A stretch of 64,000 bases of DNA. Origin: Catalimonadaceae bacterium JC749 (GTDB lineage: Bacteria > Bacteroidota > Bacteroidia > Cytophagales > Cyclobacteriaceae). Both the position numbers and the translations under genes were made by a program. The notes under the pieces were generated by a model. The model saw only the letters and a list, made by a program, of their open reading frames with translations, had not been told where the DNA came from and did not search any database. This document shows positions 32,106 to 48,382 of the stretch, one piece after another. The number at the start of each line of letters is the position of its first letter. Position 1 is the stretch's first letter. The stretch spans positions 62,001 to 126,000 of the forward strand of contig JAJNNC010000017.1 in NCBI GenBank assembly GCA_021730635.1. The letters are read 5' to 3'.

Positions 32106-33254
32106 TCAAACTTTTCGGTTAACTGCCTCTGTGGGAAAGGTAGGTAGATATACCCACATCTCAGTCCCGTGGTCAGGTCTGCTTTTAATTTTGATTTCTC
32201 CTCCTAACCTTTCAATATTGGATTTTACAATAAAGAGTCCTAAACCACTACCTTGTGAACCTTGATTACCCCGGTAAAACATGTCAAATGCCCGATTTTG
32301 AACCTGCTTATCCATGCCTTGTCCGTTATCTTTAACTTTTATCTTTACTCCATTTTTATACTTTCTGGCAGAGATTTTAGTAACAGCGTCATCAGTATTA
32401 TTTTTTCGGTATTTGATACTGTTTTCTACAAGATTCTGAAGGATAGATCTGAATGTTTTTTCTTCTGTATTGAGTTCTATATCCCTGTTAGCAGAAATCA
32501 GTAATATCACTTGTCCCCGGCCAGGGTACCCCTCAAAACTTCTGACAACGTCCTCTATACATTCTCTGACATTAAAGTTAGAGTACGTAGGATTATTGTT
32601 GGAGGCAACACCAATTTCCAGTAATCCACTCAGAGTCCTTTCTAGTTTTTCAGTACTATTTTTGATTAAATTGAAATAATGCCTGTAAATCTCCACACTT
32701 TCTTTTTCCTGTTCAACTAAACCCAACAAGCCGGAAATAGAGGCCAAGGGACCTTTGAGGTCGTGTGAAACTCTGTATACAAATGTCTTTAATTCTTTAT
32801 TTTTCTGCTTTAGAGCGTCAGTAGCTAGCAATAGCTGTTTGATATCTTTAGCGATCAGTAAATATCCCGTAGAATTTTGATTGTTTTTTAGTACAGAAAG
32901 GGAAATAGATACAGGAAGGCTTTTTCTTTCTTTTAACTTAAACTGGGTCTCACGATTATAGAGGTGTTCTTCAAACAAAATGTCCTCTAATAACCTGTTT
33001 AGAAATCTTTGCTGACTCTTAGGAAATAAAATATTAATAGGTTGCCCAATGAGATCAAATTGATTATGATGGAGTAACTGACATGTTTTGGCATTGACAA
33101 ACTGAATGTTAAAATCATTATCAAAAATGATTAACATATCGACAATGCTTTTTAACAGACTATCAAGATAATCTCGATTAATAGAAGATTCGTTCAGTTT
33201 TTCATTTAAGAAGTCAGTTGTAGAAATCATATTATACTGATTTATTTTTAACAA
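32106..33254 (-). CDS. PAS domain sensor histidine kinase, soluble
   Basis: 382 aa without membrane segments. Residues about 30-140 form a PAS domain (MLIIFDNDFNIQFVNAKTCQLL), a short helix follows, then HisKA with H164 (VSHDLKGPLASISG) and an HATPase with N box (LQNLVENSIKYR), DNGQGMD and GSGLGLFIVKSNI. It autophosphorylates on His and would pass phosphate to a response regulator; none is adjacent, but the single-domain regulators at 45.7 and 48.0 kb are orphan candidates. A later Met (residue 9, 33230) is also a possible start. Confidence 0.9.
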   Translation of the reverse strand: MLKINQYNMISTTDFLNEKLNESSINRDYLDSLLKSIVDMLIIFDNDFNIQFVNAKTCQLLHHNQFDLIGQPINILFPKSQQRFLNRLLEDILFEEHLYNRETQFKLKERKSLPVSISLSVLKNNQNSTGYLLIAKDIKQLLLATDALKQKNKELKTFVYRVSHDLKGPLASISGLLGLVEQEKESVEIYRHYFNLIKNSTEKLERTLSGLLEIGVASNNNPTYSNFNVRECIEDVVRSFEGYPGRGQVILLISANRDIELNTEEKTFRSILQNLVENSIKYRKNNTDDAVTKISARKYKNGVKIKVKDNGQGMDKQVQNRAFDMFYRGNQGSQGSGLGLFIVKSNIERLGGEIKIKSRPDHGTEMWVYLPTFPTEAVNRKV

Positions 33255-33681: not shown

Positions 33682-36600
33682 ATGTTGAAATATTATAAAA
33701 TATTTCTGTTCGTTTTTCTAATTATCTTTTTTGCAGGAGGCTGTGAGTTTGAAGAAAAGAATTATATCAGACCCGTACCAATCGCCCTGGAAGCAGTAGA
33801 CTTGAGTGCTACTGGGTTCACTGCTAAGTGGAAACCTATGTTAGGGGCTAATAGTTACACTTTAGAGCTTGCTACTGATGATGTTTTTGAAGAAGGTATC
33901 GTTAATAGTTTTCCAAAGGTAATTAATGATACGCTATTCAACGTAGAAAATTTGGAAGCAAGCCAAACCTACTATTACAGAGTAAAAGCTACAAGAGACA
34001 ATGGTGATACCGAATATTCTAATGTTGTAAAAGCAACAACTGACGGCTTAGCTCCTCCTAAGGTACTCGATCCAGACCATGTTACACCTGTCAGTTTTAC
34101 TGCGCAATGGCAACCTGTCCCTGAAGCTGAAAGTTACCTGCTTTATATCGCAACTGATATCGGCTTTGCTTCCATATTGGAAAAATACAATGGATTTGAA
34201 ACAACAGATACAACATATGTTATCAATGATTTAACTGTAAATCAAAAGTATTTTTATAAGGTGAAAGCAAAGCGAGGAAAAGCTACTTCTGATTTTTCCT
34301 CTACTATTTTTGCGCCTACCAGTGAGTTAGAAACACCTGTTATCCAGGAAGCTACAGAAATTAACTTAACCAGCTTTACGATCAATTGGGGAGAAGTGTC
34401 AGGCGCCACCTCTTATTTGGTATTTATCAGTACAGATCCGCTGGTAACAGATACTTTATCAGGTTATGGTCCAAAAGAAGTAACGGCCTCATCCCTGATC
34501 GTGGTGGGGTTGAATGCCAATACTACTTATTATTACCGTATACAGGCTAAAAATAGCTTGACACCCTCTGGTAAATCTGAGATTGTTGCTACAAAAACTG
34601 GCCAGCTCAGTAATCCTGTTGCACAATCAGCTAGTGATGTTCAGATTAATAGTTTCCGGGCAAATTGGGATTCTGCAGAATTTGCCACCAGTTATACATT
34701 AGATGTAGCTCGTGATCCTAATTTTACAAATTTCTTGTCTGGCTACAGGAACAGAGAAGTGGTCAATACTTCCGAAGTGGTTTCTAACCTGTTAAGAAAT
34801 ACTACCTATTATTACCGGGTGAGAGCCAAAGGGTTTGGTTCTTCTTCTGATCCTTCCAATACCGTTGAAGTCATTACAACCTCTTTTGCTAGTCCTCTGG
34901 CACTCAATGCGATTGAAGTGCAGCCTACCAGCTTTAAGGCGGTCTGGCAACCAGTTTCAAATGCTCACAGCTATCGTCTGGAAGTTGCGACAGACCCCAA
35001 CTTTACATCTACACTTTCTAACTATAATAACGTGAGTGTTGACGATACAGTAAAGCTGGTCACAGGACTAACGATTAATAAAAACTATTTCTACAGAGTG
35101 AGAGCTATAAGGGATAGTATTTTGTCAGGTTACTCAAATATTATTAGTCAGACAACTACAGACCTTTCTAAGCCTCAGATGCAGGCCGCTACTCATGTAA
35201 CACTCACTAGCTTTCATGCCAACTGGCAACCTGTGTCGGGAGCTATAAGCTATCTGATCGATGTAGCCAACGATCCGCTGTTTACAGATATCTTTGTAGA
35301 TTATGACAATAAGGAGCTAACGGCTACTACCTTGACTGTTACTGGACTGGACGCTAATAAAACTTACTATTACAGAGTCAGAGCAAAGAATAATGTGGCC
35401 ATTTCAGAAAATTCTGAGGTGGGTTCCGCCAAAACTTCCGCCATTGATCCTCCTTTGGCTTCTGCTGCCAGTAGTGTGACCATGTCCAGCTTTCAGGCCA
35501 ACTGGTCTGCCGTAACGAATGCTGATAGTTACTTGTTAGATGTAGCTGTCGATCCTAATTTTCAAAGTTTGGTGCCAGGGTTTAATGCAAAGGAGATCTT
35601 TGATACGTTTGAGATAATTTCAGACCTGGAGCCGGCCACTACTTACTATTACAGAATAAAAGCCAAAGGTCTTAATTCCACTTCTTCTTTTTCTAATGTA
35701 ATTAACGCTACCACTGCTCAGCTGCCTCCACCAAATGTATTAAATGCCACCCATCATACCGTCTTTGAATTTACGGCTAACTGGGAGGAAGTCACAGGCG
35801 CTACCAGCTATTTATTGTATGTAGCAACAGACGCAGCATTTACCCAGGTGTTACCCAATTACAATGGGAAAGAGGTGGTGGGTAGTACAGCGACTGTATC
35901 GGATTTAGAACCGCATAACACCTACTATTATCGCTTGAGAAGTAGAAGACTTTCTAAAGTTTCAGATTATTCAAATGTTAGAGCAGTGAATGCCAGCATT
36001 GCGTCTGGCTGTAGAATTTCTGAGATAGAAATTTCAGGTGTGGAAAGAGAAGTGTTTACCTATGATGATGAGGATGACCTGGTAGAGAAAATAGAATTAT
36101 TTGATATAGCAGGCCCCACCACCTTGATGCAGGATTTCTCTATGACCTACAATGGGTCTGGACAAATACTAACAGCCACCAGGAGAGAATGGAATGGAGT
36201 TGTGATGGAAACTACCGAAAATTGGAGTTTTGATTATACAAGCGGCCGGCTGTCCGGCATTGCTAAAACGGATGCCACCAATGGAAATCCCTTATCTTAT
36301 TTACAATTCCAGTATAATGATGAGGGAATGGTGTCTGAATTATTATTTTATACGGATGCTACCCAAGTAACACTTATTGACAAAGAGACATATCTGTACA
36401 ATACAAAGGGGCAGGTAACCAGCGTAGAAGATAAGGATGGCAATGAGATTAAAAAGTTTATGTATAACAATGCGTTTAATGCAGAAGCTCTCTTCCATCC
36501 TGATATTGCCTTGATGTTACATAATGCGACTGGTGGCACTAATCAGCCCATTATTCATATCCATGATCTAACTTATTATCAATATTATGATAGCGGTACC

Positions 36601-36720
36601 AGTGCCTGGAAAAACTTTTCTTATGTATATGATTACAATGAGAAGGGAGTGCCGGTTAAAATTTATGCCAATAATGGTATTCCAGATATTATCTATGAGT
36701 ATGAAGATTGTGATTTTTAA
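33682..36720 (+). CDS. lipoprotein with eight fibronectin type III repeats
   Basis: 1012 aa. Lipobox FFAGGC puts the lipid on Cys21. Eight consecutive repeats of about 92 residues span roughly 32-770, each with a SFxAxW strand (for example SFTAQWQPV, SFHANWQPV) and ending TYYYRVRAK. Residues about 775-1012 form a different domain with Tyr-rich strands (TMTYNGSGQILTAT, FQYNDEGMVSELLFY, YLYNTKGQVTSVEDKDGN) like RHS/YD wall repeats. Probably on the outer-membrane surface, where FN3 arrays bind glycans or proteins. It opens a run of closely spaced genes: 22 bases to the TonB receptor. Specific ligand unknown. Confidence 0.88.
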   Translation: MLKYYKIFLFVFLIIFFAGGCEFEEKNYIRPVPIALEAVDLSATGFTAKWKPMLGANSYTLELATDDVFEEGIVNSFPKVINDTLFNVENLEASQTYYYRVKATRDNGDTEYSNVVKATTDGLAPPKVLDPDHVTPVSFTAQWQPVPEAESYLLYIATDIGFASILEKYNGFETTDTTYVINDLTVNQKYFYKVKAKRGKATSDFSSTIFAPTSELETPVIQEATEINLTSFTINWGEVSGATSYLVFISTDPLVTDTLSGYGPKEVTASSLIVVGLNANTTYYYRIQAKNSLTPSGKSEIVATKTGQLSNPVAQSASDVQINSFRANWDSAEFATSYTLDVARDPNFTNFLSGYRNREVVNTSEVVSNLLRNTTYYYRVRAKGFGSSSDPSNTVEVITTSFASPLALNAIEVQPTSFKAVWQPVSNAHSYRLEVATDPNFTSTLSNYNNVSVDDTVKLVTGLTINKNYFYRVRAIRDSILSGYSNIISQTTTDLSKPQMQAATHVTLTSFHANWQPVSGAISYLIDVANDPLFTDIFVDYDNKELTATTLTVTGLDANKTYYYRVRAKNNVAISENSEVGSAKTSAIDPPLASAASSVTMSSFQANWSAVTNADSYLLDVAVDPNFQSLVPGFNAKEIFDTFEIISDLEPATTYYYRIKAKGLNSTSSFSNVINATTAQLPPPNVLNATHHTVFEFTANWEEVTGATSYLLYVATDAAFTQVLPNYNGKEVVGSTATVSDLEPHNTYYYRLRSRRLSKVSDYSNVRAVNASIASGCRISEIEISGVEREVFTYDDEDDLVEKIELFDIAGPTTLMQDFSMTYNGSGQILTATRREWNGVVMETTENWSFDYTSGRLSGIAKTDATNGNPLSYLQFQYNDEGMVSELLFYTDATQVTLIDKETYLYNTKGQVTSVEDKDGNEIKKFMYNNAFNAEALFHPDIALMLHNATGGTNQPIIHIHDLTYYQYYDSGTSAWKNFSYVYDYNEKGVPVKIYANNGIPDIIYEYEDCDF

Positions 36721-36742
36721 TGGCAGGATAGGCTAAAATAAT

Positions 36743-38815
36743 ATGCAACGAATTTATTGTTTCAGTTTCATTTCATTATTATTTATTCAAAATGCCCTGG
36801 CTCAGGTAGATAGCGCTCATATCGATAAACCTTATTTGCTTTCTGTAGAAGAGGATGTTCTGCCAATGGAAGTTCAAAACACCGAAGAGCGTGAAGTGTT
36901 TGCCGCTTCCAGAAATCTGGAAAAAGTATTTGAAACCGCCATTGCCACATCCATCATTACAGCTGATGAAATCAAACAAGCCGGTGCTACCAATTTGCCT
37001 GAGTCGCTAAGATTAATACCTGATTTGGTAGTGCGCCAAAAGTCAAACGGATATTATAGCGTACACATCAGAAGTGATGTGTCCTTTTCTCTGGATGACC
37101 AAAGTCCTAATTTTGATAATACGACAGTATTGCTAACTATCAATGGAATTCCCTTTAACAATTTTTATCAGGGAAGTATATATTGGGAGACCGTTCCTGT
37201 AGATTTACACGATATTAAAAGAATTGAAGTTATTAAAACCCCTCATACTGTTTTTTATGGTACCGGGGCCGCTACAGGTGTCATAAATATTGTCACTAAA
37301 GTAGTAAGTAACAATCGTTTGAAGGCTCATACTAATTTTCAGGGTGGCACCTATAATACCTATGTTCACCGTGGAGATGCTGGTTTTGCAGTTTCTGAAA
37401 AGCTACAATTTAGGATTTCAGGTTACTACCATTCCAGGGCCAGATTTATGGACCCTTACTACGTTTTCGATCAGCAAAAGTACATAAAAAGCGATTCCTT
37501 GCTTTTTTATCATGCCAGGATTGAGAAAACCAATCTTTATCCCGAAAGAGCATTACAAAGTTCAGGACTCAATGCTTATGCCTTTTGGAAGATAAATTCC
37601 CAGGCCGATGTTGAAATTTTCGCTTACACTCAAAATTCCAGTATACAGAGTGCTTCCTTAAAAACAGGAAATCTGGCATTTAACAACAGAACCTCGAAAA
37701 CAAATTCGATAAATATCAAATCAAAGATCTATCGTCTTCATGCTAATTTTTCTTACCAGTCGGGGCTACAGAATCTGGCGGTAGGATACACTGGGTATGA
37801 AATGGAAATTGGCAATATATTTTCATCGCTTGATTATCACCATTACGGCAAATTTTATCGCCTGAAAGCAGGCACTAGCTACCTCAGAAATGCAGCTCAT
37901 AATTTGTTTATCCCTAACTCTGTAGCGGAAATCAGGCAGATAACTTCTAATCCATATGTGAATCATGCGGTGCTGGGCAGAAATTTTGTGACTGATTTCG
38001 GGCTTTACCTGTCTCAAAACTTCTATTTCTTCAGAAACACCCTGAAGCTGACTGGGACGGGAAGAATGGATTATCTAAATACAACCCAACAGTTACACTC
38101 TTCTTATCAAATAGCCTCTTCTTTGAAAATAGGAGGTAAGAACATGGTAAGAATGGCACTTTCCAAAGGGCTTCAGGGAACTTATGTGATGGATTATTTT
38201 AGCTTAGAAGATTCTCTGGAGCAAACATATGTCACGTATAAGGATGTAAATCCAATCACGGTGGAAAATTTTGAACTTGGTTATAGAACCAGGCCCTTAA
38301 GAGAACTATTTGTTGATTTTACCTTATTTCACAGCAAAACCTACAATTTTTTGCAACATAGTTCTGCCAATGATAATAATGAAATAATGAATAGCAACAC
38401 TTCCGCCAGTCTGACAGGGATTACGATTGATACTGATTTTGCTTTTAATAAATTAACCTTTAAAACCTTTGTAACGCTCCAGAGTGCACATTATCAAGCG
38501 GCAGATAGCCGGGAAAAAGAAAACTTTACGCCAAGTTATGTTGGGGGGATAGCCTGCAGCTATAGTATGTTTTTAAATAAACTGAAAATTAACACCAATT
38601 TATACTTTTATGATCATTCCAGCTTTCTGAATCAGTATTATACATATGCCGTTGCTGGTAAAACCATTACTAACTTAAAAATTTCCTACAACTTCTGGGG
38701 TGAACATACTATCTATTTTAACGGAAGGAATATACTGAATAATAAAAGCATTGAATATCCTTATGCGGACGAAATTACACGCTTATATCTGGTAGGAATT
38801 GACCTAACTTTCTGA
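36743..38815 (+). CDS. TonB-dependent outer membrane receptor
   Basis: 690 aa with signal peptide (ISLLFIQNALAQ). The plug domain is at about residues 55-180 with IATSIITADEIKQAGATNLPESL and RIEVIKTPHTVFYGTGAATGVINIV, as in BtuB/Cir-type receptors. A 22-strand barrel follows and ends in a C-terminal Phe (LYLVGIDLTF). No carboxypeptidase-like N-terminal domain, so it is not SusC type. Its position between the FN3 lipoprotein and a SpoIIE-type phosphatase is unusual. Substrate cannot be assigned (siderophore, cobalamin or peptide). Confidence 0.93.
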   Translation: MQRIYCFSFISLLFIQNALAQVDSAHIDKPYLLSVEEDVLPMEVQNTEEREVFAASRNLEKVFETAIATSIITADEIKQAGATNLPESLRLIPDLVVRQKSNGYYSVHIRSDVSFSLDDQSPNFDNTTVLLTINGIPFNNFYQGSIYWETVPVDLHDIKRIEVIKTPHTVFYGTGAATGVINIVTKVVSNNRLKAHTNFQGGTYNTYVHRGDAGFAVSEKLQFRISGYYHSRARFMDPYYVFDQQKYIKSDSLLFYHARIEKTNLYPERALQSSGLNAYAFWKINSQADVEIFAYTQNSSIQSASLKTGNLAFNNRTSKTNSINIKSKIYRLHANFSYQSGLQNLAVGYTGYEMEIGNIFSSLDYHHYGKFYRLKAGTSYLRNAAHNLFIPNSVAEIRQITSNPYVNHAVLGRNFVTDFGLYLSQNFYFFRNTLKLTGTGRMDYLNTTQQLHSSYQIASSLKIGGKNMVRMALSKGLQGTYVMDYFSLEDSLEQTYVTYKDVNPITVENFELGYRTRPLRELFVDFTLFHSKTYNFLQHSSANDNNEIMNSNTSASLTGITIDTDFAFNKLTFKTFVTLQSAHYQAADSREKENFTPSYVGGIACSYSMFLNKLKINTNLYFYDHSSFLNQYYTYAVAGKTITNLKISYNFWGEHTIYFNGRNILNNKSIEYPYADEITRLYLVGIDLTF

Positions 38816-38859
38816 ATACGTTGACCATTCAAAATTTATACACCGTCAGTTTCATCTAT

Positions 38860-41490
38860 ATGGGCCGTAAGGTGACGCTACTTGGCAGCTTTATCCTGGT
38901 ATTCTGCATTGGAGCAGTCTGCCTGCCTGTTTTGATGTTTGGCCAGAATTTGTCATCAGCAGGAAAGGCACAAAAAGAAACTTATATAGAAATAGTTAAT
39001 TCACACTTACAAAAGGCAAGCAGCTATCACCAGGGCTTACAATTAGAAGAAGCTTTGGCCCAGGCACAAGAGGCTCTCAAAATATCTCAAAATAATAATT
39101 ATTTAACCGGTAAGGCACAAAGTCTCAGTCTGCTTGGAAAAATTAGCGAAGACACCGGAGAGATCTCAGAAAGTTTGAGATTTCATTTATGGGCTATTCA
39201 GACCTTAGAGTTGATCAATGATCAGCAGAAGATAGCCCAGGAGTATAAAGAAATTGGCTATTTGTACTTAAATATGAAAGCTTACAAAAAAGCCAAAGAG
39301 TATTTATTGTTGTATCAAACAACCACAGAGAAAACAGGAATCAGAATCGATGAGCAAATCAGTTTCTGGAGAGATATTGCTTTTATCCATCTGCAGTTAA
39401 AGGAATATACAGAAGCCGGAAAATATTATGTGATGTTATTAGCGGATCAAATCAATCAAAAGGATACGGTTGCCCAAGAAAGAACGTTACGCACTTTGGC
39501 TTTCATCAGTAAAAGTGCTAATCGACTTGAGGAAGCCATAAGGTATCATCAGAGGCTACTGGAAATCTATCGATCGCAGGATAATATCATTAAGCTCACT
39601 AATACATATAATGACCTTGGTTTCTTATACAAGAAAAAAAATGATCTTAAAACATCGATAGAATATTTCAATAATGGCATTAGTATTAGTCAGGAGCACA
39701 CAGAAGTATTAGATGACGATTCACAAGTTGCTTTATTTTCTAACATAGGTATAGCCTATACAAACTTATCCCTTTTTGCTCGCGCCAAAGAGTATTATTT
39801 GCATGCTCTTCGGATTCGGGAAAAACAAGAGAATCCGGAGGGAGAGGCTTATATTTATAATCAATTAGCCTCCAATTATTTTGTGAGCGGAAAAAACGCT
39901 TTAGCCTTAAAGTCGGTGATGAGTGCCATTGACATTGGTGTTACCTATGATGCCAAAGAAGTTTTGGCTACCAGTTATAAAATATTATCTCTGATCTACG
40001 AATCTGATAACAATCTGGGCAAGGCACAACTCTACGAGAAAAAGTATAGAGAGATTATGGAGCACATTGAGGAGAAAGATGCCCTGACATTTGAAGAGAT
40101 GCTGCATCGACAAAACGAGCTTGAAAGAAAAGAAGATGACATAAAAGTACAGCTCCGTGAGCAAGAGCAAAGTACCCTTGAGGCAGAGAGGAGAGAAAAT
40201 GAACTAATTCTGAAAGAAAAAGAACTTGCCATTCTTAAAAGAGATCAGGAGTTGCAGGCCATTGCCTTACAAAATCAACAGTTGGAGAAAGTCAAAGCGG
40301 AGCAGGCATTGGTTCTAGCCAGGCAGCAGTTACAGGCAGAAAAAAAAGAAACAGAATTAAGGGAGCTGGAAAAGCAAAAGCAGCTTCAAGATTTAAAACT
40401 TAAGCAACAAATGCTTGAAAAAGAACAGCAGGAAAAAGCCATCGCCTTGCTAGAAGCAGACCAGAAATTGAAAGAGCAGAAATTACAGGAGGAAGCTAGT
40501 ATAAGGAATTATGGATACGGCATCATTGCTTTGTTTATTTTCATCTTATTAGTGGTTCTATTGAGCTTTATCCAAAAAAGAAATGACAATAAGAAGTTAC
40601 AACACCAACAGGTAGAAATAAAGAAAAAAAACGAGCAACTTCTACTTAGTGAGCAGGAACTGCGGAAAAATATGGATGAGCTTAAAGATGCGCAAATAAC
40701 TTTAGCAGAACAAAAAGAACAGCTTGAATTAGAGTACAGAAAAACCCAGGAAAGTATAGAGTATGCTAAAAGAATTCAATTCTCAATTCTTCCAACTGAT
40801 ACGCAAAGGGTTAGCCTGATCCCAGACAGCTTCATTCTGTACAAACCAAAAGACATAGTATCAGGAGATTTTTATTGGATTTCCAAAAATGAGGAAAAGA
40901 TTATAGTCTCTGTGGTGGATTGCACCGGACATGGCGTGCCAGGAGCTTTGGTTTCTTTGATCGGTAACAACGTGTTGAATGAAGCTATTAATGAGCAACA
41001 ATTGTTAAATCCGGTTGAAATATTGCATTATTTGGACAAAAAGGTGCATCAAAAATTGAGACAGGATGAGGGTCAGATTAAAGATGGAATGGATTTGGGT
41101 ATATGTACACTGGAGCCTATAGGATCCACTTTAGTAAAATTGGTATATAGTGGTGCTAAAAATACCATGTTTATTGTGACTAAGGGTAAATTGTTTACTC
41201 TAAAAGGAGATAGAAAATCTATTGGTGGAGATAAAAATAATGTTCAATTCTCTTCCCAGGAAATGGTGCTGGATAGGGGAGATGTTATTTATCTTACCAC
41301 AGATGGTTTTATTGATCAAGCTAATCCGCTGAGAGAACGTTTCGGTACAAAAAAGCTCAAAATGCTTATTGAGAAAGTGCACCCGTTCACTATGGCTGAT
41401 CAAAAAGTGATTTTTGAAAATGCATTAGCGGAACATCAACAGGCCACAGAACAAAGAGATGATATCAATTTTATTGGTATAAGGATATGA
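38860..41490 (+). CDS. TPR - coiled-coil - membrane - SpoIIE/PP2C phosphatase (SiaA-like)
   Basis: 876 aa. The frame starts at TTG 38821, but ATG 38860 gives a good signal/anchor (GRKVTLLGSFILVFCIGAVCLPVLMFG). Residues about 40-400 are periplasmic TPR repeats (for example FSNIGIAYTNLSLFARAKEY), 410-545 a long Glu/Lys/Gln coiled coil, 552-572 a membrane helix, then a second coiled coil and a SpoIIE domain from about 625 (YAKRIQFSILP, DIVSGDFYWI, VVDCTGHGVPGALVS, DMGDDINFIG-like end QRDDINFIG). The phosphatase should dephosphorylate SiaC-like protein in response to a periplasmic signal. Twenty bases to the siaB-like gene. Confidence 0.93.
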   Translation: MGRKVTLLGSFILVFCIGAVCLPVLMFGQNLSSAGKAQKETYIEIVNSHLQKASSYHQGLQLEEALAQAQEALKISQNNNYLTGKAQSLSLLGKISEDTGEISESLRFHLWAIQTLELINDQQKIAQEYKEIGYLYLNMKAYKKAKEYLLLYQTTTEKTGIRIDEQISFWRDIAFIHLQLKEYTEAGKYYVMLLADQINQKDTVAQERTLRTLAFISKSANRLEEAIRYHQRLLEIYRSQDNIIKLTNTYNDLGFLYKKKNDLKTSIEYFNNGISISQEHTEVLDDDSQVALFSNIGIAYTNLSLFARAKEYYLHALRIREKQENPEGEAYIYNQLASNYFVSGKNALALKSVMSAIDIGVTYDAKEVLATSYKILSLIYESDNNLGKAQLYEKKYREIMEHIEEKDALTFEEMLHRQNELERKEDDIKVQLREQEQSTLEAERRENELILKEKELAILKRDQELQAIALQNQQLEKVKAEQALVLARQQLQAEKKETELRELEKQKQLQDLKLKQQMLEKEQQEKAIALLEADQKLKEQKLQEEASIRNYGYGIIALFIFILLVVLLSFIQKRNDNKKLQHQQVEIKKKNEQLLLSEQELRKNMDELKDAQITLAEQKEQLELEYRKTQESIEYAKRIQFSILPTDTQRVSLIPDSFILYKPKDIVSGDFYWISKNEEKIIVSVVDCTGHGVPGALVSLIGNNVLNEAINEQQLLNPVEILHYLDKKVHQKLRQDEGQIKDGMDLGICTLEPIGSTLVKLVYSGAKNTMFIVTKGKLFTLKGDRKSIGGDKNNVQFSSQEMVLDRGDVIYLTTDGFIDQANPLRERFGTKKLKMLIEKVHPFTMADQKVIFENALAEHQQATEQRDDINFIGIRI

Positions 41491-41509
41491 TTCTTTAATA
41501 TAAATAATC

Positions 41510-42052
41510 ATGCTTTCAAGAGAGAATATGTTAGATCGTTTAGTTATTATTCAAGATAAGAGAATTCTTATTTCTTATAAGGGGCCTGTTACGCCAGTAA
41601 TTATGGCTGAGATTAGCCGGGACATTCAAGATAAACTGGCCGAAAACCCAAAAGCAAGCCGAAAGGTTTTCTCTGTATTTATTGAGTTAGCACAAAATAT
41701 CCTTTACTACTCCGTTGAGAAAATTCAATATGCGGGAAGATTAGATAGTGTAGGAATGTTACAAATCATAGAGATGGACGATTATTTTGTTTTTTTGTGC
41801 GGGAACACCGTCATGAAAAAAGATGTGGCACAATTGGTTAACAATTGTAAAACCATCAATTCCTTAAACAGAGAGGAGCTTCGTAAGCTCAAGCGTTATC
41901 AGCGAAAACAACCTCAAAGCGAAACCAGTAAAGGAGCGGGTATCGGATTGGTGCAAGTAGCTATACTCTCTGATAATCCCTTGGAAATCCAGATACATGA
42001 AGTAGATGACGATCAATCATTCTTTACATTGTCAGTTAATATTAATAAGTGA
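41510..42052 (+). CDS. siaB: SiaB-type protein kinase (DUF6272)
   Basis: 180 aa GHKL-type kinase. It has an N-box-like IELAQNILYYSVEK and a G-box GAGIGLVQVA near residue 145, as in anti-sigma-factor-like kinases of partner-switching modules. In Pseudomonas SiaB phosphorylates SiaC on a Thr, opposing the SiaA phosphatase. The gene sits between SiaA-like and SiaC-like genes, exactly the known order. An alternative Met lies six codons in. Assignment is by family and neighbourhood. Confidence 0.85.
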   Translation: MLSRENMLDRLVIIQDKRILISYKGPVTPVIMAEISRDIQDKLAENPKASRKVFSVFIELAQNILYYSVEKIQYAGRLDSVGMLQIIEMDDYFVFLCGNTVMKKDVAQLVNNCKTINSLNREELRKLKRYQRKQPQSETSKGAGIGLVQVAILSDNPLEIQIHEVDDDQSFFTLSVNINK

Positions 42053-42056
42053 AATT

Positions 42057-42455
42057 ATGGAAACAACTAACTTGAATGATTTAGAAATTACAGGTGAAAA
42101 AGGCACTTATTTTATTCCTTATGTACGTTTCAACGCGGAAACTGGGAAATGTTTATTAGAAGGAGAGTCTTATCTGGAGAATACCTGGGAATTTTACAAC
42201 CAATTAAAGGCTTGGTTACAGAGCTATTCTGCCACCAATAAGCCGATCTTCCTTGATTTTAAACTTACATATTTTAACACCAGTTCCTCTAAAGGCATTT
42301 TTGAGCTATTGATGTTTTTAAAAGAATATGAAAATAATGGAGGAAAAGTAATGATTAACTGGTATTACCCTGAATATGACGAAGATCTGTTGGAGGAAGC
42401 AGAAGATTTCATAGAAGATACCCAACTGGCCATTAGATTGATACCTTACAAATAA
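42057..42455 (+). CDS. siaC: SiaC family regulatory phosphoprotein (DUF1987)
   Basis: 132 aa from the ATG at 42057; the open frame extends upstream into siaB but that part has no family similarity. The domain contains FIPYVRFNAETGKCLLEGESYLE and the phosphorylation loop LTYFNTSSSKGIFELL, in which the Thr matches the residue phosphorylated by SiaB in the Pseudomonas system. There dephospho-SiaC activates the diguanylate cyclase SiaD; no GGDEF gene is nearby, so the output target here is unknown. Four bases after the siaB-like stop, one transcript. Confidence 0.88.
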   Translation: METTNLNDLEITGEKGTYFIPYVRFNAETGKCLLEGESYLENTWEFYNQLKAWLQSYSATNKPIFLDFKLTYFNTSSSKGIFELLMFLKEYENNGGKVMINWYYPEYDEDLLEEAEDFIEDTQLAIRLIPYK

Positions 42456-42587
42456 TCAGCTTCACTTAGAAATGAGCTATATCCCTCAAAATACGGTCAT
42501 TTATTTTTAACTAAATATTAAGGGATGAAAAAGTTGTTTAAACTTCCAAATCCAGGTTATTTGCATAGCTAATAAAAGGCTGATAGT

Positions 42588-43757
42588 ATGAATCGATATG
42601 TAAAATCTCTGGATGGGTTACGTGCTGTAGCAGTACTGTTGGTCATGCTCTTTCATTTTCGGATTTACGATTTTGGTTCGGCAGGAATAGGAGTAGGCTG
42701 GATAGGAGTACAGCTATTTTTTGTGCTGTCAGGATACTTAATCACGCAGATACTGCTGGAAGAGAAGAAGAAGAGTCTTGGATTTTATCTGAAGAAATTC
42801 TACTGGCGTAGAGCCCTCCGGATTTTTCCTTTATATTTCGGGTATTTATTCGCAATATCTGCCGTCTTTTTTATTACTGACAAACCTTATTTTTTAGGGG
42901 ATAAACTTCCTTTCTTATATTCTTATACCTTCAATTTTACGCGACTCTTTCCCGACTGGAAGCATAGTCCTCTTTATACCCATCTTTGGTCCTTATCGGT
43001 AGAAGAGCAATTTTACTTATTCTGGCCATTCTTTATTTATTTTCTTTCCAGAAGAAACCTGAAAATAGGTGTCATTACCATTCTGCTTTTCATACCCGTT
43101 TTCAGATATTTTTTAGGACAGTATCTTGTATATAGTAGTCAGCTGACACCAGAAGCCATAGGCGAAGCTATCTACTGGTTTACTTTTAGTCATATTGATG
43201 CGTTTGCGATAGGAGGAGCAATTCCAATTTTTGATATGAAGCACACAGTAAAGAAGCCAACTCTCCTGTTAATAAGTTCTTTCCTGATTTTGATTTTATT
43301 TGGTTTATTTAATGCCCTGTCTATTATTCCGCAAGATGTGCATTTTGAAATCTCCAGCTTGGGATTTCCTATTGGGGGTATGCAAAATATGCAGCATGTG
43401 TGGTCCTATTCTTTGTTAAACATATCTTTTGCTGCTTTGATCTTATGGCTATTGAAGCATCAAAACCAAAAAAATATTCTGACTAATCCTTTATTGGTTT
43501 CTATAGGAAAGGTTTCTTATGGTATGTATTTGTTTCACTGGATTATTTTATCAGTATTTAGTAAAGCAGTAGAAAGATTACCCTGGACTGTCAACAGTCT
43601 GCTATTATTTATAGTATTCTTTTTAATAGTCTATGGGGTATCATGGTGTAGCTATCAACTGTACGAGAAAAGGTTTCTACGCTTAAAAGATAGGATTTAC
43701 AATGAGAAGCCGTCTGAAAATAAGATTATCTACCGGACCGATAGTGCTTCCCAGTAA
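42588..43757 (+). CDS. acyltransferase family 3 (OafA type) membrane protein
   Basis: 389 aa with about ten membrane helices. The N-terminal signature SLDGLRAVAVLLVMLFHF (with the conserved His/Arg) and LWSLSVEEQFYLFWPFF are typical of OafA/NodX/OatA O-acyltransferases, which acetylate surface polysaccharides. No periplasmic SGNH domain is attached. It follows the SiaABC-like genes by 132 bases in the same direction and may be a downstream member or regulated output, which is inference. Confidence 0.92.
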   Translation: MNRYVKSLDGLRAVAVLLVMLFHFRIYDFGSAGIGVGWIGVQLFFVLSGYLITQILLEEKKKSLGFYLKKFYWRRALRIFPLYFGYLFAISAVFFITDKPYFLGDKLPFLYSYTFNFTRLFPDWKHSPLYTHLWSLSVEEQFYLFWPFFIYFLSRRNLKIGVITILLFIPVFRYFLGQYLVYSSQLTPEAIGEAIYWFTFSHIDAFAIGGAIPIFDMKHTVKKPTLLLISSFLILILFGLFNALSIIPQDVHFEISSLGFPIGGMQNMQHVWSYSLLNISFAALILWLLKHQNQKNILTNPLLVSIGKVSYGMYLFHWIILSVFSKAVERLPWTVNSLLLFIVFFLIVYGVSWCSYQLYEKRFLRLKDRIYNEKPSENKIIYRTDSASQ

Positions 43758-45736: not shown

Positions 45737-46162
45737 ATGAAGAAACCAATTTCCCTTGTTTGCATTATAGACGATGATGATTATTATGTTTTTGCTTTGA
45801 GTAGAATGATGAACCTTTTGGGGATGAGCGATAGAATCATTTCTTTTCCCAATGGTGAAGATGCCATAGATTATCTGACTATGGTCAAGGATTATCCTGT
45901 GCAGATACCAAATATTATTTTTCTGGATATAGAGATGCCAGTTATGGATGGTTGGGAATTCTTGAAAAACTTCATCCAAATTAAAGATCAACTTTCCAAG
46001 CCTGTTTGTGTTTATATTATCAGTTCTTCTAACGATTTAAAGTACATCCAAAAAGCCAAAGAATTTCCGGTAGTATCTGATTATTTAATAAAAGCAATTG
46101 ACAAAGCAGAACTGAAGCGTGTATTAGAAGAGGTGCAGGGAAGGAAAGAAAAAATAATGTAA
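45737..46162 (+). CDS. single-domain response regulator (CheY-like), paralogue 1
   Basis: 141 aa receiver domain only. Acidic pocket IIDDDDYY, phospho-acceptor Asp in IFLDIEMPVMDGW, Ser in YIISSSND and Lys in DYLIKAIDK (Ala follows Lys instead of the usual Pro). Paralogue of the gene at 47960: they share FPNGEDAIDFL/YLTMVKDYPVQIP almost completely. No output domain and no adjacent kinase, so it probably takes phosphate from an orphan kinase and acts by protein-protein contact. Lies in an AT-rich variable region. Confidence 0.92.
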   Translation: MKKPISLVCIIDDDDYYVFALSRMMNLLGMSDRIISFPNGEDAIDYLTMVKDYPVQIPNIIFLDIEMPVMDGWEFLKNFIQIKDQLSKPVCVYIISSSNDLKYIQKAKEFPVVSDYLIKAIDKAELKRVLEEVQGRKEKIM

Positions 46163-47694: not shown

Positions 47695-47959
47695 AGGCTC
47701 AAGGCTAGGGGGTTTCTTAAAATTACACTTATGTTTTTTATTTGGCCAATTGCCTTAGCTGTAAAAGGCTGGAGTATATTTTTTTTCAACAAACTACCAC
47801 AACAAAGCGCTCAAAGAAAAAGTAAATCTAAACCCACCATTACCACCTTTTTAATGACAAACAATCTATTATCACATATGTTATTTTATATTTATTTAAT
47901 ATTAATTTATATTTTTTAAATAAATATTTTTGTATTTATAAACTAAACATTAAATGATT
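47695..47959. promoter_or_regulatory. AT-rich leader of response regulator 2 with -7 element
   Basis: Very AT-rich 265 bases. TATTTTTG at 47925-47932 is an exact TAnnTTTG and ends 28 bases before the ATG at 47960, the same distance as at paralogue 1. A 62-codon frame at 47731-47919 is low-complexity and not believed. Confidence 0.55.
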
Positions 47960-48382
47960 ATGGATAAATCAAAACCTCTGGCTTGTGTCATTGACGATGA
48001 TGAGTTCTACGTCCTGGCGCTAACAAGAATGATTGAAATCTTTAAACTGGCGGAATCTACCATTCACTTTCCCAATGGAGAAGATGCTATTGATTTTCTT
48101 ACCATGGTCAAAGATTATCCTGTACAGATACCCGATATCATATTTCTGGATATCAACATGCCTATTATGAATGGCTGGAGATTTCTTGATAAATTTATAA
48201 ACCTCAAGGATCAGCTTTCTAAGCCTGCCAAAATCTATATGACGAGCTCTTCTTTCAACAGCCTGGATATGTATAAGGCTAAAACTTATGGGACAATAGC
48301 TGACTACCTTATTAAACCAGTAATGAAGGCAGATTTAATTAGGGTATTCAAGGAATTGCAAAATGAAAGAGCGATTTCTTGA
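47960..48382 (+). CDS. single-domain response regulator (CheY-like), paralogue 2
   Basis: 140 aa. The start at 47960 (MDKSKPLAC) lines up residue for residue with the paralogue (MKKPISLVC) and keeps the same promoter distance; an ATG two codons earlier is in frame. Acidic residues VIDDDEFY, phospho-acceptor Asp in IFLDINMPIMNGW, Thr/Ser in YMTSSSFN and Lys-Pro in DYLIKPVMK are all present. Single receiver domain with no output. The shared FPNGEDAIDFLTMVKDYP segment shows recent duplication with 45737. Confidence 0.92.
   Translation: MDKSKPLACVIDDDEFYVLALTRMIEIFKLAESTIHFPNGEDAIDFLTMVKDYPVQIPDIIFLDINMPIMNGWRFLDKFINLKDQLSKPAKIYMTSSSFNSLDMYKAKTYGTIADYLIKPVMKADLIRVFKELQNERAIS

Follow-up and report, generated by a model that had tools for sequence, protein, structure and literature searches.

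The window, the 64,000-nucleotide stretch of DNA from Catalimonadaceae bacterium JC749 analysed here, carries a row of five genes in which those for an FN3-repeat lipoprotein and a TonB-dependent receptor (TBDR) are followed by those for a TPR-SpoIIE phosphatase, a SiaB-family kinase and a SiaC (DUF1987) phosphoprotein. The components and their linkage are well supported, and the joining of a receptor to a SiaABC-type switch, put forward in a preliminary description of this DNA, is a real and conserved gene set. In Pseudomonas, work on the SiaABC switch has shown that c-di-GMP is under its control. We lean towards the hypothesis that the locus in the window is a trans-envelope relay, in which the receptor and lipoprotein act through the TPR phosphatase, set against SiaB, on SiaC and from there on a target other than c-di-GMP.

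Gene organisation

The head-to-tail arrangement of the five genes, with the coordinates and gaps first described for it, was reproduced from the open reading frames (Table 1). An in-frame TTG at 38821 offers an alternative start for the phosphatase, with which the gap to the TBDR gene would be 5 bases and not 44. None of the four module junctions has a terminator-like site, and the whole scan gave 8 against 7.8 (sd 2.8) in shuffles. Promoter-like sites numbered 58 against 44.3 (sd 6.9) in shuffles, the consensus used being that of sigma-70, which fits the phylum of the source bacterium poorly, so that we base no conclusion on the scan.

Table 1. Features of the locus, in positions of the window
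Feature	Position	Strand	Remarks
Soluble PAS histidine kinase gene, possible part	32106..33254	-	Divergent from module; PAS, HisKA, HATPase_c
FN3 lipoprotein gene	33682..36720	+	ORF; first of five-gene row
TBDR gene	36743..38815	+	22 bases after lipoprotein gene
Conserved box, TBDR residues 31-42, TonB-box candidate	36833..36868	+	Codons near mature N-terminus
TPR-SpoIIE phosphatase gene	38860..41490	+	44 bases after TBDR gene
SiaB-family kinase gene	41510..42052	+	19 bases after phosphatase gene
SiaC (DUF1987) gene	42057..42455	+	4 bases after SiaB gene
Acyltransferase (Acyl_transf_3) gene	42588..43757	+	132 bases after SiaC gene; neighbour, not kept part

Domain structure of the encoded proteins

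The lipoprotein matches fn3 in Pfam (E 2.8e-39); a count by eye gives eight repeats, and the protein ends in a C-terminal domain to which Pfam assigns no name. Its Pfam matches are to fn3 and Ig-like families, with none to SusD. The lipobox cysteine (Cys21) and a following motif, C-x5-[EDN]-[FY]-I-x-P, are present in all 14 orthologs of the window's family and in 7 of 9 listed orthologs from other families. For the TBDR the TonB plug (E 3.5e-16) is the sole Pfam match, and neither an STN domain nor a carboxypeptidase-like N-terminal domain was found by Pfam. Its AlphaFold2 model is a plugged barrel (pLDDT 79.7, pTM 0.83), with best structural matches to BtuB (VIA Z 38.5, 2.2 Å, 532 residues, over residues 49-690); the uptake receptors Cir and FecA (barrel) are also matched, and the VIA listing includes SusC-type barrels (6zlt). 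From the Plug match, the model and the BtuB match, the TBDR is predicted to be a plug inside a 22-strand barrel. Residues 18-47 are modelled without structure (pLDDT < 50) and hold an N-terminal box of the type Y-x-L-x-V-x-x-D-x-L, the Asp38 of which is invariant in 22 aligned orthologs; the box may act as a TonB box.

The phosphatase combines TPR_12 (E 1.9e-19) with SpoIIE (E 3.2e-18, 66.8 bits against a cut-off of 25), and five acidic residues, D670, D687, D745, D815 and D868, which we take to be those of the metal site, are invariant in 22 orthologs. Hydropathy gives two hydrophobic segments (7-25 and 553-571), and the AlphaFold2 model, with a pLDDT of 83.1 but a pTM of 0.50, places TPR helices to residue 382, a long helix at 386-545 (pLDDT < 50 in its second half), another at 554-643 and then the SpoIIE domain. 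The predicted architecture is thus TPR, long helix, membrane segment, helix and SpoIIE/PP2C, a topology which fits the periplasmic TPR sensor suggested earlier.

SiaB passes the cut-off of the SiaB-family kinase model NF038262 (151.7 bits against 85) and matches PDB 6KKO chain A (7.1e-18), with E59, N63 and G142-A-G-x-G invariant in 8 sequences. SiaC, in which hydropathy finds no hydrophobic segment and which is predicted to be cytoplasmic, passes the cut-off of PF09345 (129.2 bits against 24.5) and aligns at 9.6e-19 with 6KKO chain C, the SiaC of P. aeruginosa (YLNTSSIK). Its Thr75, in YFNTSSSK, aligns with the NTSS threonine of that chain, which corresponds to Thr68 in a passage of PMC7647112, and N74-T75-S76-S77-S78 is invariant in 15 orthologs. 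Passages of PMC7647112 and PMC8457831 describe Thr68 of SiaC as the site on which SiaA and SiaB act, and a helical stalk as what SiaC binds. The marks of a SiaABC system, namely a SpoIIE/PP2C phosphatase in a membrane protein and, by sequence, a SiaB-family kinase and a SiaC with its phospho-site threonine, were all found in the window, with all three proteins falling below the NCBIfam equivalog cut-offs (SiaA 191/700, SiaB 90.1/225 and SiaC 83.1/150 bits); the SiaA value is that of the phosphatase C-terminal part against NF038263 (3.7e-56).

Conservation of the row within the family

Synteny in relatives had been set beforehand as a check on the arrangement, and it is present rather than absent. 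Fourteen genomes, from 5 genera of one family, carry the whole order from FN3 lipoprotein through TBDR, TPR-SpoIIE and SiaB to SiaC, which places it beyond chance, and in 2 further genomes it is interrupted by contig ends. These come from a search of 390 genomes for this type of SiaB, found in 18 (14 complete rows, 2 cut); G023 and G120 have a SiaB of the window's type without the TBDR. The named search yielded 62 loci, four of which (L064, L065, L067 and L070) duplicate the contigs of G001, G197, G146 and G176 and were not counted again. The row lies on one strand throughout, and at the longest ORFs of 13 loci its successive junction gaps are -26 to 171, -28 to 20, -17 to 42 and -14 to 94, the lipoprotein-TBDR gap of 167-171 bases in one genus leaving space for a promoter. 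The outward parts are more divergent than the inward parts, as judged by mean pairwise identity (TBDR 0.36, lipoprotein 0.36 and TPR 0.37, against 0.52-0.54 for the helices, 0.52 for SpoIIE and 0.55 for SiaC).

A single tree was built from the SpoIIE C-terminal part, SiaB and SiaC, in which some inner nodes have support of 46-80 and the tip L065 is a repeat of L148. The same clade holds a multi-pass SpoIIE protein in L009, with similar ones in L153 and L155, and cytosolic PAS/GAF SpoIIE proteins in L055, L100 and L102, suggesting that the SiaB-SiaC core may operate with these other inputs too. Three further TBDR relatives inside the family (L210-L212) are without SpoIIE within two genes.

Related receptors in other families

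Of 51 matches to the TBDR, 5 belong to the family of the window and 46 lie outside it; 37 loci, holding 38 of these 46, were examined, and G547, G435, G567, the second of G436, the second of G556, G510, G447 and G040 were left out. In these 37 loci, from other families of the order, SpoIIE was called by sequence motif, with the profile run on at most 10 of the proteins outside the family, and a SpoIIE gene was found within two genes of the TBDR in 19 (on the strand of the TBDR in 17 and with an FN3 lipoprotein also present in 10) and in the other 18 was not. SiaB/SiaC lie within three genes of the TBDR in only 2 of the 37, in other arrangements: SiaB-SiaC-kinase-TBDR-TPR-SpoIIE in L242 and YfiR-YfiR-TBDR-SpoIIE-SiaB-SiaC in L243, two separate links outside the family. 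Because SpoIIE accompanies the TBDR so much more often than SiaB/SiaC do, the lipoprotein, TBDR and TPR-SpoIIE look like the most widely shared part and older core, with SiaB-SiaC a later link. Adjoining SiaB-SiaC are mainly a feature of one family, and, with no SiaB/SiaC within three genes of the TBDR in 35 of the 37 loci, the link between TBDR and SiaC need not be general.

Flanking genes and the output

The divergent PAS histidine kinase, which the preliminary description does not mention, has no hydrophobic segment by hydropathy. Of the 13 complete copies with a visible upstream side, 7 have it in the same position (the window, L050, L148, L149, L150, L152 and L154). On the other side, among the copies seen, only the window and G001, which share a genus, have the acyltransferase (Acyl_transf_3, E 5.9e-34) after SiaC, and no such gene was found next to the module in the 13 complete copies that belong to other genera. 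We have therefore rejected it as the output, and the cell-envelope modification proposed earlier is left without support. The flanks vary by genus: L148 has a mannitol dehydrogenase-like gene, L050 and L154 one for a receiver-domain protein, L160 one for a cellulase-type enzyme and L161 one for a scramblase-family protein, and so no common output gene adjoining the module was found.

That no diguanylate cyclase is visible, at first an observation on the neighbouring genes, now extends to the whole genome and to all 16 module genomes. GGDEF gave no match over the cut-off in 36 genomes (own 0/1, relatives 0/15 and 0/20), incomplete ones being G543 (62%), G525 (84%), G555 (88%) and G527 (89%); there was one sub-threshold match (G234, 21 bits), and the controls gave a signal in 8 of 14. 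On this basis we reject SiaD and other GGDEF proteins; the module does not have a SiaD-type cyclase as its output. SiaC, by comparison, is present in all 15 relatives searched, the same 15 in which no GGDEF exceeds the cut-off, with 2 to 44 matches per genome, which points to a large signalling network. Other SiaC genes stand in the contexts MlaE-MlaF-SiaC (own genome and G013), SpoIIE-SiaB-SiaC-TerB/ABCG (several genomes) and, as lone SiaC, near PTPS/FolE genes; as candidate SiaC targets these neighbours are suggestive only.

Proposed mechanism and alternatives

In the relay that we propose, the FN3-repeat lipoprotein and the BtuB-like TBDR would form the outer-membrane input, and their occupancy, or the ligand delivered, would be sensed by the TPR domain that the membrane-spanning phosphatase has in the periplasm. 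From there the change would pass along the long helix and through the membrane segment to the cytoplasmic SpoIIE domain, which would take the phosphate off SiaC Thr75, while SiaB would restore it. Unphosphorylated SiaC would then bind a target protein encoded elsewhere and other than a GGDEF diguanylate cyclase. As the row is kept in genera without a detected c-di-GMP synthase, the switch probably signals the state of the receptor to some target that is not c-di-GMP. We infer that receptor and phosphatase are in contact, which way the signal runs, that the phosphatase acts on SiaC and what kind of target is reached.

One possibility is that the TBDR is a transporter only and that the TPR domain binds the imported ligand, so that the phosphatase senses the ligand and not the state of the receptor. 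The model of the TBDR resembles uptake receptors and is without an STN signalling domain, a TonB-box-like motif is kept, and the divergence of TPR, TBDR and lipoprotein together would be expected if all three track a ligand. We nevertheless consider this rather unlikely, in that the phosphatase gene stays by this type of TBDR across several families, even where the genes are reordered (L202 and L204), which fits contact but does not require it. Control could also run in reverse, with SiaABC answering another periplasmic cue and setting the expression or activity of an adjoining TBDR and lipoprotein; adjacency alone gives no direction, and DUF1987 proteins are suggested in a passage of PMC8457831 to modulate adjacent proteins. 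Direct action of SiaC on the TBDR is, however, unlikely because one is predicted to be cytoplasmic and the other lies in the outer membrane, and SiaB-SiaC adjoin so few of the related TBDR loci that we regard reverse control as improbable.

A further possibility is that genes for uptake and a SiaABC cassette of general function lie side by side with no signalling between them, given that SiaB-SiaC cassettes are common in these bacteria (SiaB matches in 42 of 59 relatives, and more than 40 SiaC in some genomes). This we find very improbable when set against the recurrence of one gene order with tight junctions across five genera. The genome of the window, moreover, has 116 plug matches and 7 SpoIIE genes, and only the TBDR of the window lies within 10 kb of a SpoIIE gene, a frequency of 1/116, against 19/37 among relatives of this receptor.

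Comparison with known systems

The known route from a TBDR to the cell is mainly of the FecA/FecR type. Tentatively, and with some doubt, we extend the relay to Cytophagales, where a class of TBDR with an FN3 lipoprotein might signal via a membrane TPR-PP2C phosphatase, instead of an anti-sigma/sigma pair, and drive c-di-GMP-free SiaC switching, the SiaC family having been re-purposed and strongly multiplied (over 40 copies in some genomes) for other targets by direct binding, with ABC transporters as candidates. If this is true, signalling by way of a phosphatase would add a second route by which an outer-membrane receptor is read, in a phylum where TBDRs are plentiful, as the plug matches in the window's own genome illustrate, and SiaABC switching would not depend on c-di-GMP.

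With SiaABCD of Pseudomonas aeruginosa (SiaA phosphatase, SiaB kinase, SiaC phosphoprotein and SiaD diguanylate cyclase) the window shares the membrane SpoIIE phosphatase, SiaB, SiaC and the order A-B-C, and its proteins keep the catalytic and phospho-site residues; however, its genome is without SiaD or any GGDEF over the cut-off, and its input differs, a periplasmic TPR domain preceded by TBDR and lipoprotein. As in FecA-FecR-FecI signalling, a TBDR stands beside an inner-membrane protein whose periplasmic part could read the receptor, but here the TBDR lacks STN and the inner-membrane protein is a phosphatase; no anti-sigma/sigma (FecR- or FecI-like) Pfam match was found among the 19 window proteins scanned (23999-52866). 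The pairing of a TBDR gene with an outer-membrane lipoprotein gene recalls the SusC-SusD pairs of Bacteroidota, although the lipoprotein consists of FN3 repeats with no SusD match, and the TBDR is closest to BtuB and is without the carboxypeptidase-like N-terminal domain. Finally, distant relatives of the TBDR adjoin YfiR (DUF4154) genes; the window proteins scanned include no YfiR match, but one such locus, L243, also has SpoIIE-SiaB-SiaC.

Gene order and its conservation

The preliminary description placed a TonB-dependent receptor (TBDR) and an FN3 lipoprotein in one row with SiaABC genes, and this observation is right; the intergenic gaps it gave (22, 44, 19 and 4 bases) match the ORFs measured in the window. 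An acyltransferase (Pfam/NCBIfam) follows 132 bases after SiaC and, among the copies seen, lies 3' of the module in the window and G001 only. Two single receiver-domain proteins are encoded downstream, and a receiver gene likewise stands 3' of SiaC in loci L050 and L154.

Features with coordinates
Feature	Location	Strand	Basis
Module, head to tail: FN3-repeat lipoprotein, TBDR (plug), TPR-SpoIIE phosphatase, SiaB-family kinase, SiaC phosphoprotein	window 33682-42455	+	ORFs; Pfam, NCBIfam
Single receiver-domain proteins	window 45737-46162; 47954-48382
Multi-pass SpoIIE protein, SiaB, SiaC (own-genome paralog)	L009:9446-12126
Two YfiR, TBDR, HAMP-GAF-PAS SpoIIE protein, SiaB, SiaC	L243:2216-10285
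SiaC directly 3' of lipid-transport genes MlaE and MlaF (own genome and G013)	L012:8564-10918; L250:5353-7630
Apparently fused double SiaB kinases (372-390 aa, two matches per open frame)	G038:C132:3985-4971; G030:C1:1863665-1864708; G027:C49:49800-50753		SiaB matches

A SiaB profile made from the SiaBs of the module and a close paralog, and thus not a general SiaB survey, reached E 1e-40 or lower in 18 of the 390 genomes searched from the window's family (7 of 84 genera). The complete five-gene order was found in 14 of these, spread over 5 genera; the module is cut by contig ends in two (G001, G176), and SiaB occurs without a TBDR in two (G023, G120). The gene linkage is kept in relatives, which, with the correct initial observation, makes it worth bench work. 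Junctions, taken from the longest ORFs, are mostly short or overlapping, the exceptions being a lipoprotein-TBDR gap of 167-171 bases in one genus and a SiaB-SiaC gap of 91-94 bases in two genomes. The upstream side can be seen in 13 complete copies, and 7 of them have a divergent PAS histidine kinase there. Four copies of another genus have an upstream gene of 335-336 aa; the protein from L160, the one examined, matches CBS, PAS and, weakly, HisKA. Next to three further TBDR relatives from within the family (L210-L212) there is no SpoIIE gene.

Predicted structure and invariant residues

The TBDR is modelled as a plugged barrel, nearest to BtuB and with no extra N-terminal domain. Since the phosphatase runs from an N-terminal hydrophobic segment through TPRs and a long helix to a second hydrophobic segment (553-571) and the catalytic domain, its TPRs are predicted to be periplasmic; overall confidence in the model is low (pTM 0.50). 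Outward-facing parts of the module are more diverged than inward-facing parts. PMC5080379 gives the Bacteroidota surface lipoprotein export signal as K-(D/E)2 or Q-A-(D/E)2, and an acidic stretch behind the Cys of the window lipoprotein makes surface exposure possible.

Window SiaB aligns to Pseudomonas aeruginosa SiaB, and window SiaC to its P. aeruginosa counterpart (PDB) around the phosphorylated Thr. The alignments made show no variation at this SiaC Thr, at the Glu, Asn and Gly residues of the kinase or at the acidic residues of the phosphatase. The SiaC of paralog L009 is 73% identical to that of the window, so cross-talk between the two systems is possible.

Receptor loci beyond the family and changing inputs

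The module TBDR profile was run on 390 genomes of the order, scoring the two best candidates per genome; the outside-family sample was 37 loci, covering 38 of 46 TBDR matches. In 19 loci the TBDR has a SpoIIE gene no more than two genes away (on the same strand in 17), and the lack of one at that distance in the other 18 counts against linkage. Ten of the 19 also have the FN3 lipoprotein, with no SiaB or SiaC seen nearby, the contig of L196 ending right after the phosphatase gene. The C-terminal part of seven outside-family phosphatases tested matches the SiaA model, under its cut-off. For comparison, plug matches number 116 in the own genome and SpoIIE matches 7, and the window pair is the only one within 10 kb. 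In L238 a YfiR gene takes the place of SpoIIE. Two loci tie a TBDR to SiaB-SiaC in other arrangements: L242 (SiaB, SiaC, split histidine kinase, TBDR, then separate frames for a TPR protein and for SpoIIE) and L243, whose row joins YfiR-type to SiaABC-type signalling.

In a tree built from 33 loci (C-terminal part of SpoIIE with SiaB and SiaC), the TBDR-linked copies fall in one clade (support 100), within which are nested multi-pass membrane (L009, L153, L155) and cytosolic PAS/GAF (L055, L100, L102) SpoIIE inputs. This nesting implies that the SiaB-SiaC core is modular, its input being replaced over evolution, and that linkage to a TBDR has arisen or disappeared repeatedly.

Output and candidate SiaC targets

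In P. aeruginosa, SiaC in its unphosphorylated state attaches to the helical stalk of the cyclase SiaD, and SiaB blocks this by phosphorylating Thr68 (PMC8457831, PMC7647112). No GGDEF match exceeded the cut-off in the own genome, 15 relatives and 20 more (36 genomes, taking in all 16 module genomes), one match being sub-threshold. SiaC was found in 15 of 15 relatives searched, with 2 to 44 matches each; the own genome has five. Presence of SiaC with GGDEF absent over cut-off argues that the module SiaC would act on a target other than a GGDEF cyclase. SiaC (PF09345) reaches 44 matches in G485 and 42 in G434 (family f15), both genomes without a GGDEF match.

No gene common to module flanks was found across genera. 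Elsewhere SiaC genes adjoin MlaE-MlaF or a TerB/ABC transporter gene, neighbours we take only as leads to the target. The latter belongs to a second SiaABC cluster (SpoIIE, SiaB, SiaC, TerB/ABC transporter, lipoprotein; L010, L061, L062, L063, L252, L253, L256, L261), in which the one SpoIIE protein tested (L010) is HAMP-GAF-PAS and CheB/GAF genes lie alongside in five marker-scanned loci (L252, L253, L256, L261 and reference L010).

Proposed relay and relation to known systems

From gene order and topology we infer the main step, that receptor state is passed to the phosphatase. A full trans-envelope relay, from receptor and lipoprotein through the TPR domain and the opposed phosphatase and SiaB to SiaC, is a reading we favour slightly. 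The boldest form, a Cytophagales TBDR class with FN3 lipoprotein signalling through a TPR-PP2C phosphatase, with SiaC re-purposed and multiplied for other targets (ABC transporters being candidates), is tentative and somewhat less likely than not.

Neither TonB-dependent receptor, SpoIIE and partner switching, nor SpoIIE, TonB-dependent, Bacteroidetes and tetratricopeptide, were found together in the open-access literature searched; three papers there name both TonB-dependent receptor and SpoIIE, and in two of them no such link was found described. DUF1987 is named in one paper of that literature. The module belongs to SiaABC switching in the broad sense but not to the SiaABCD system of P. aeruginosa, and we class it as a new form of such switching.
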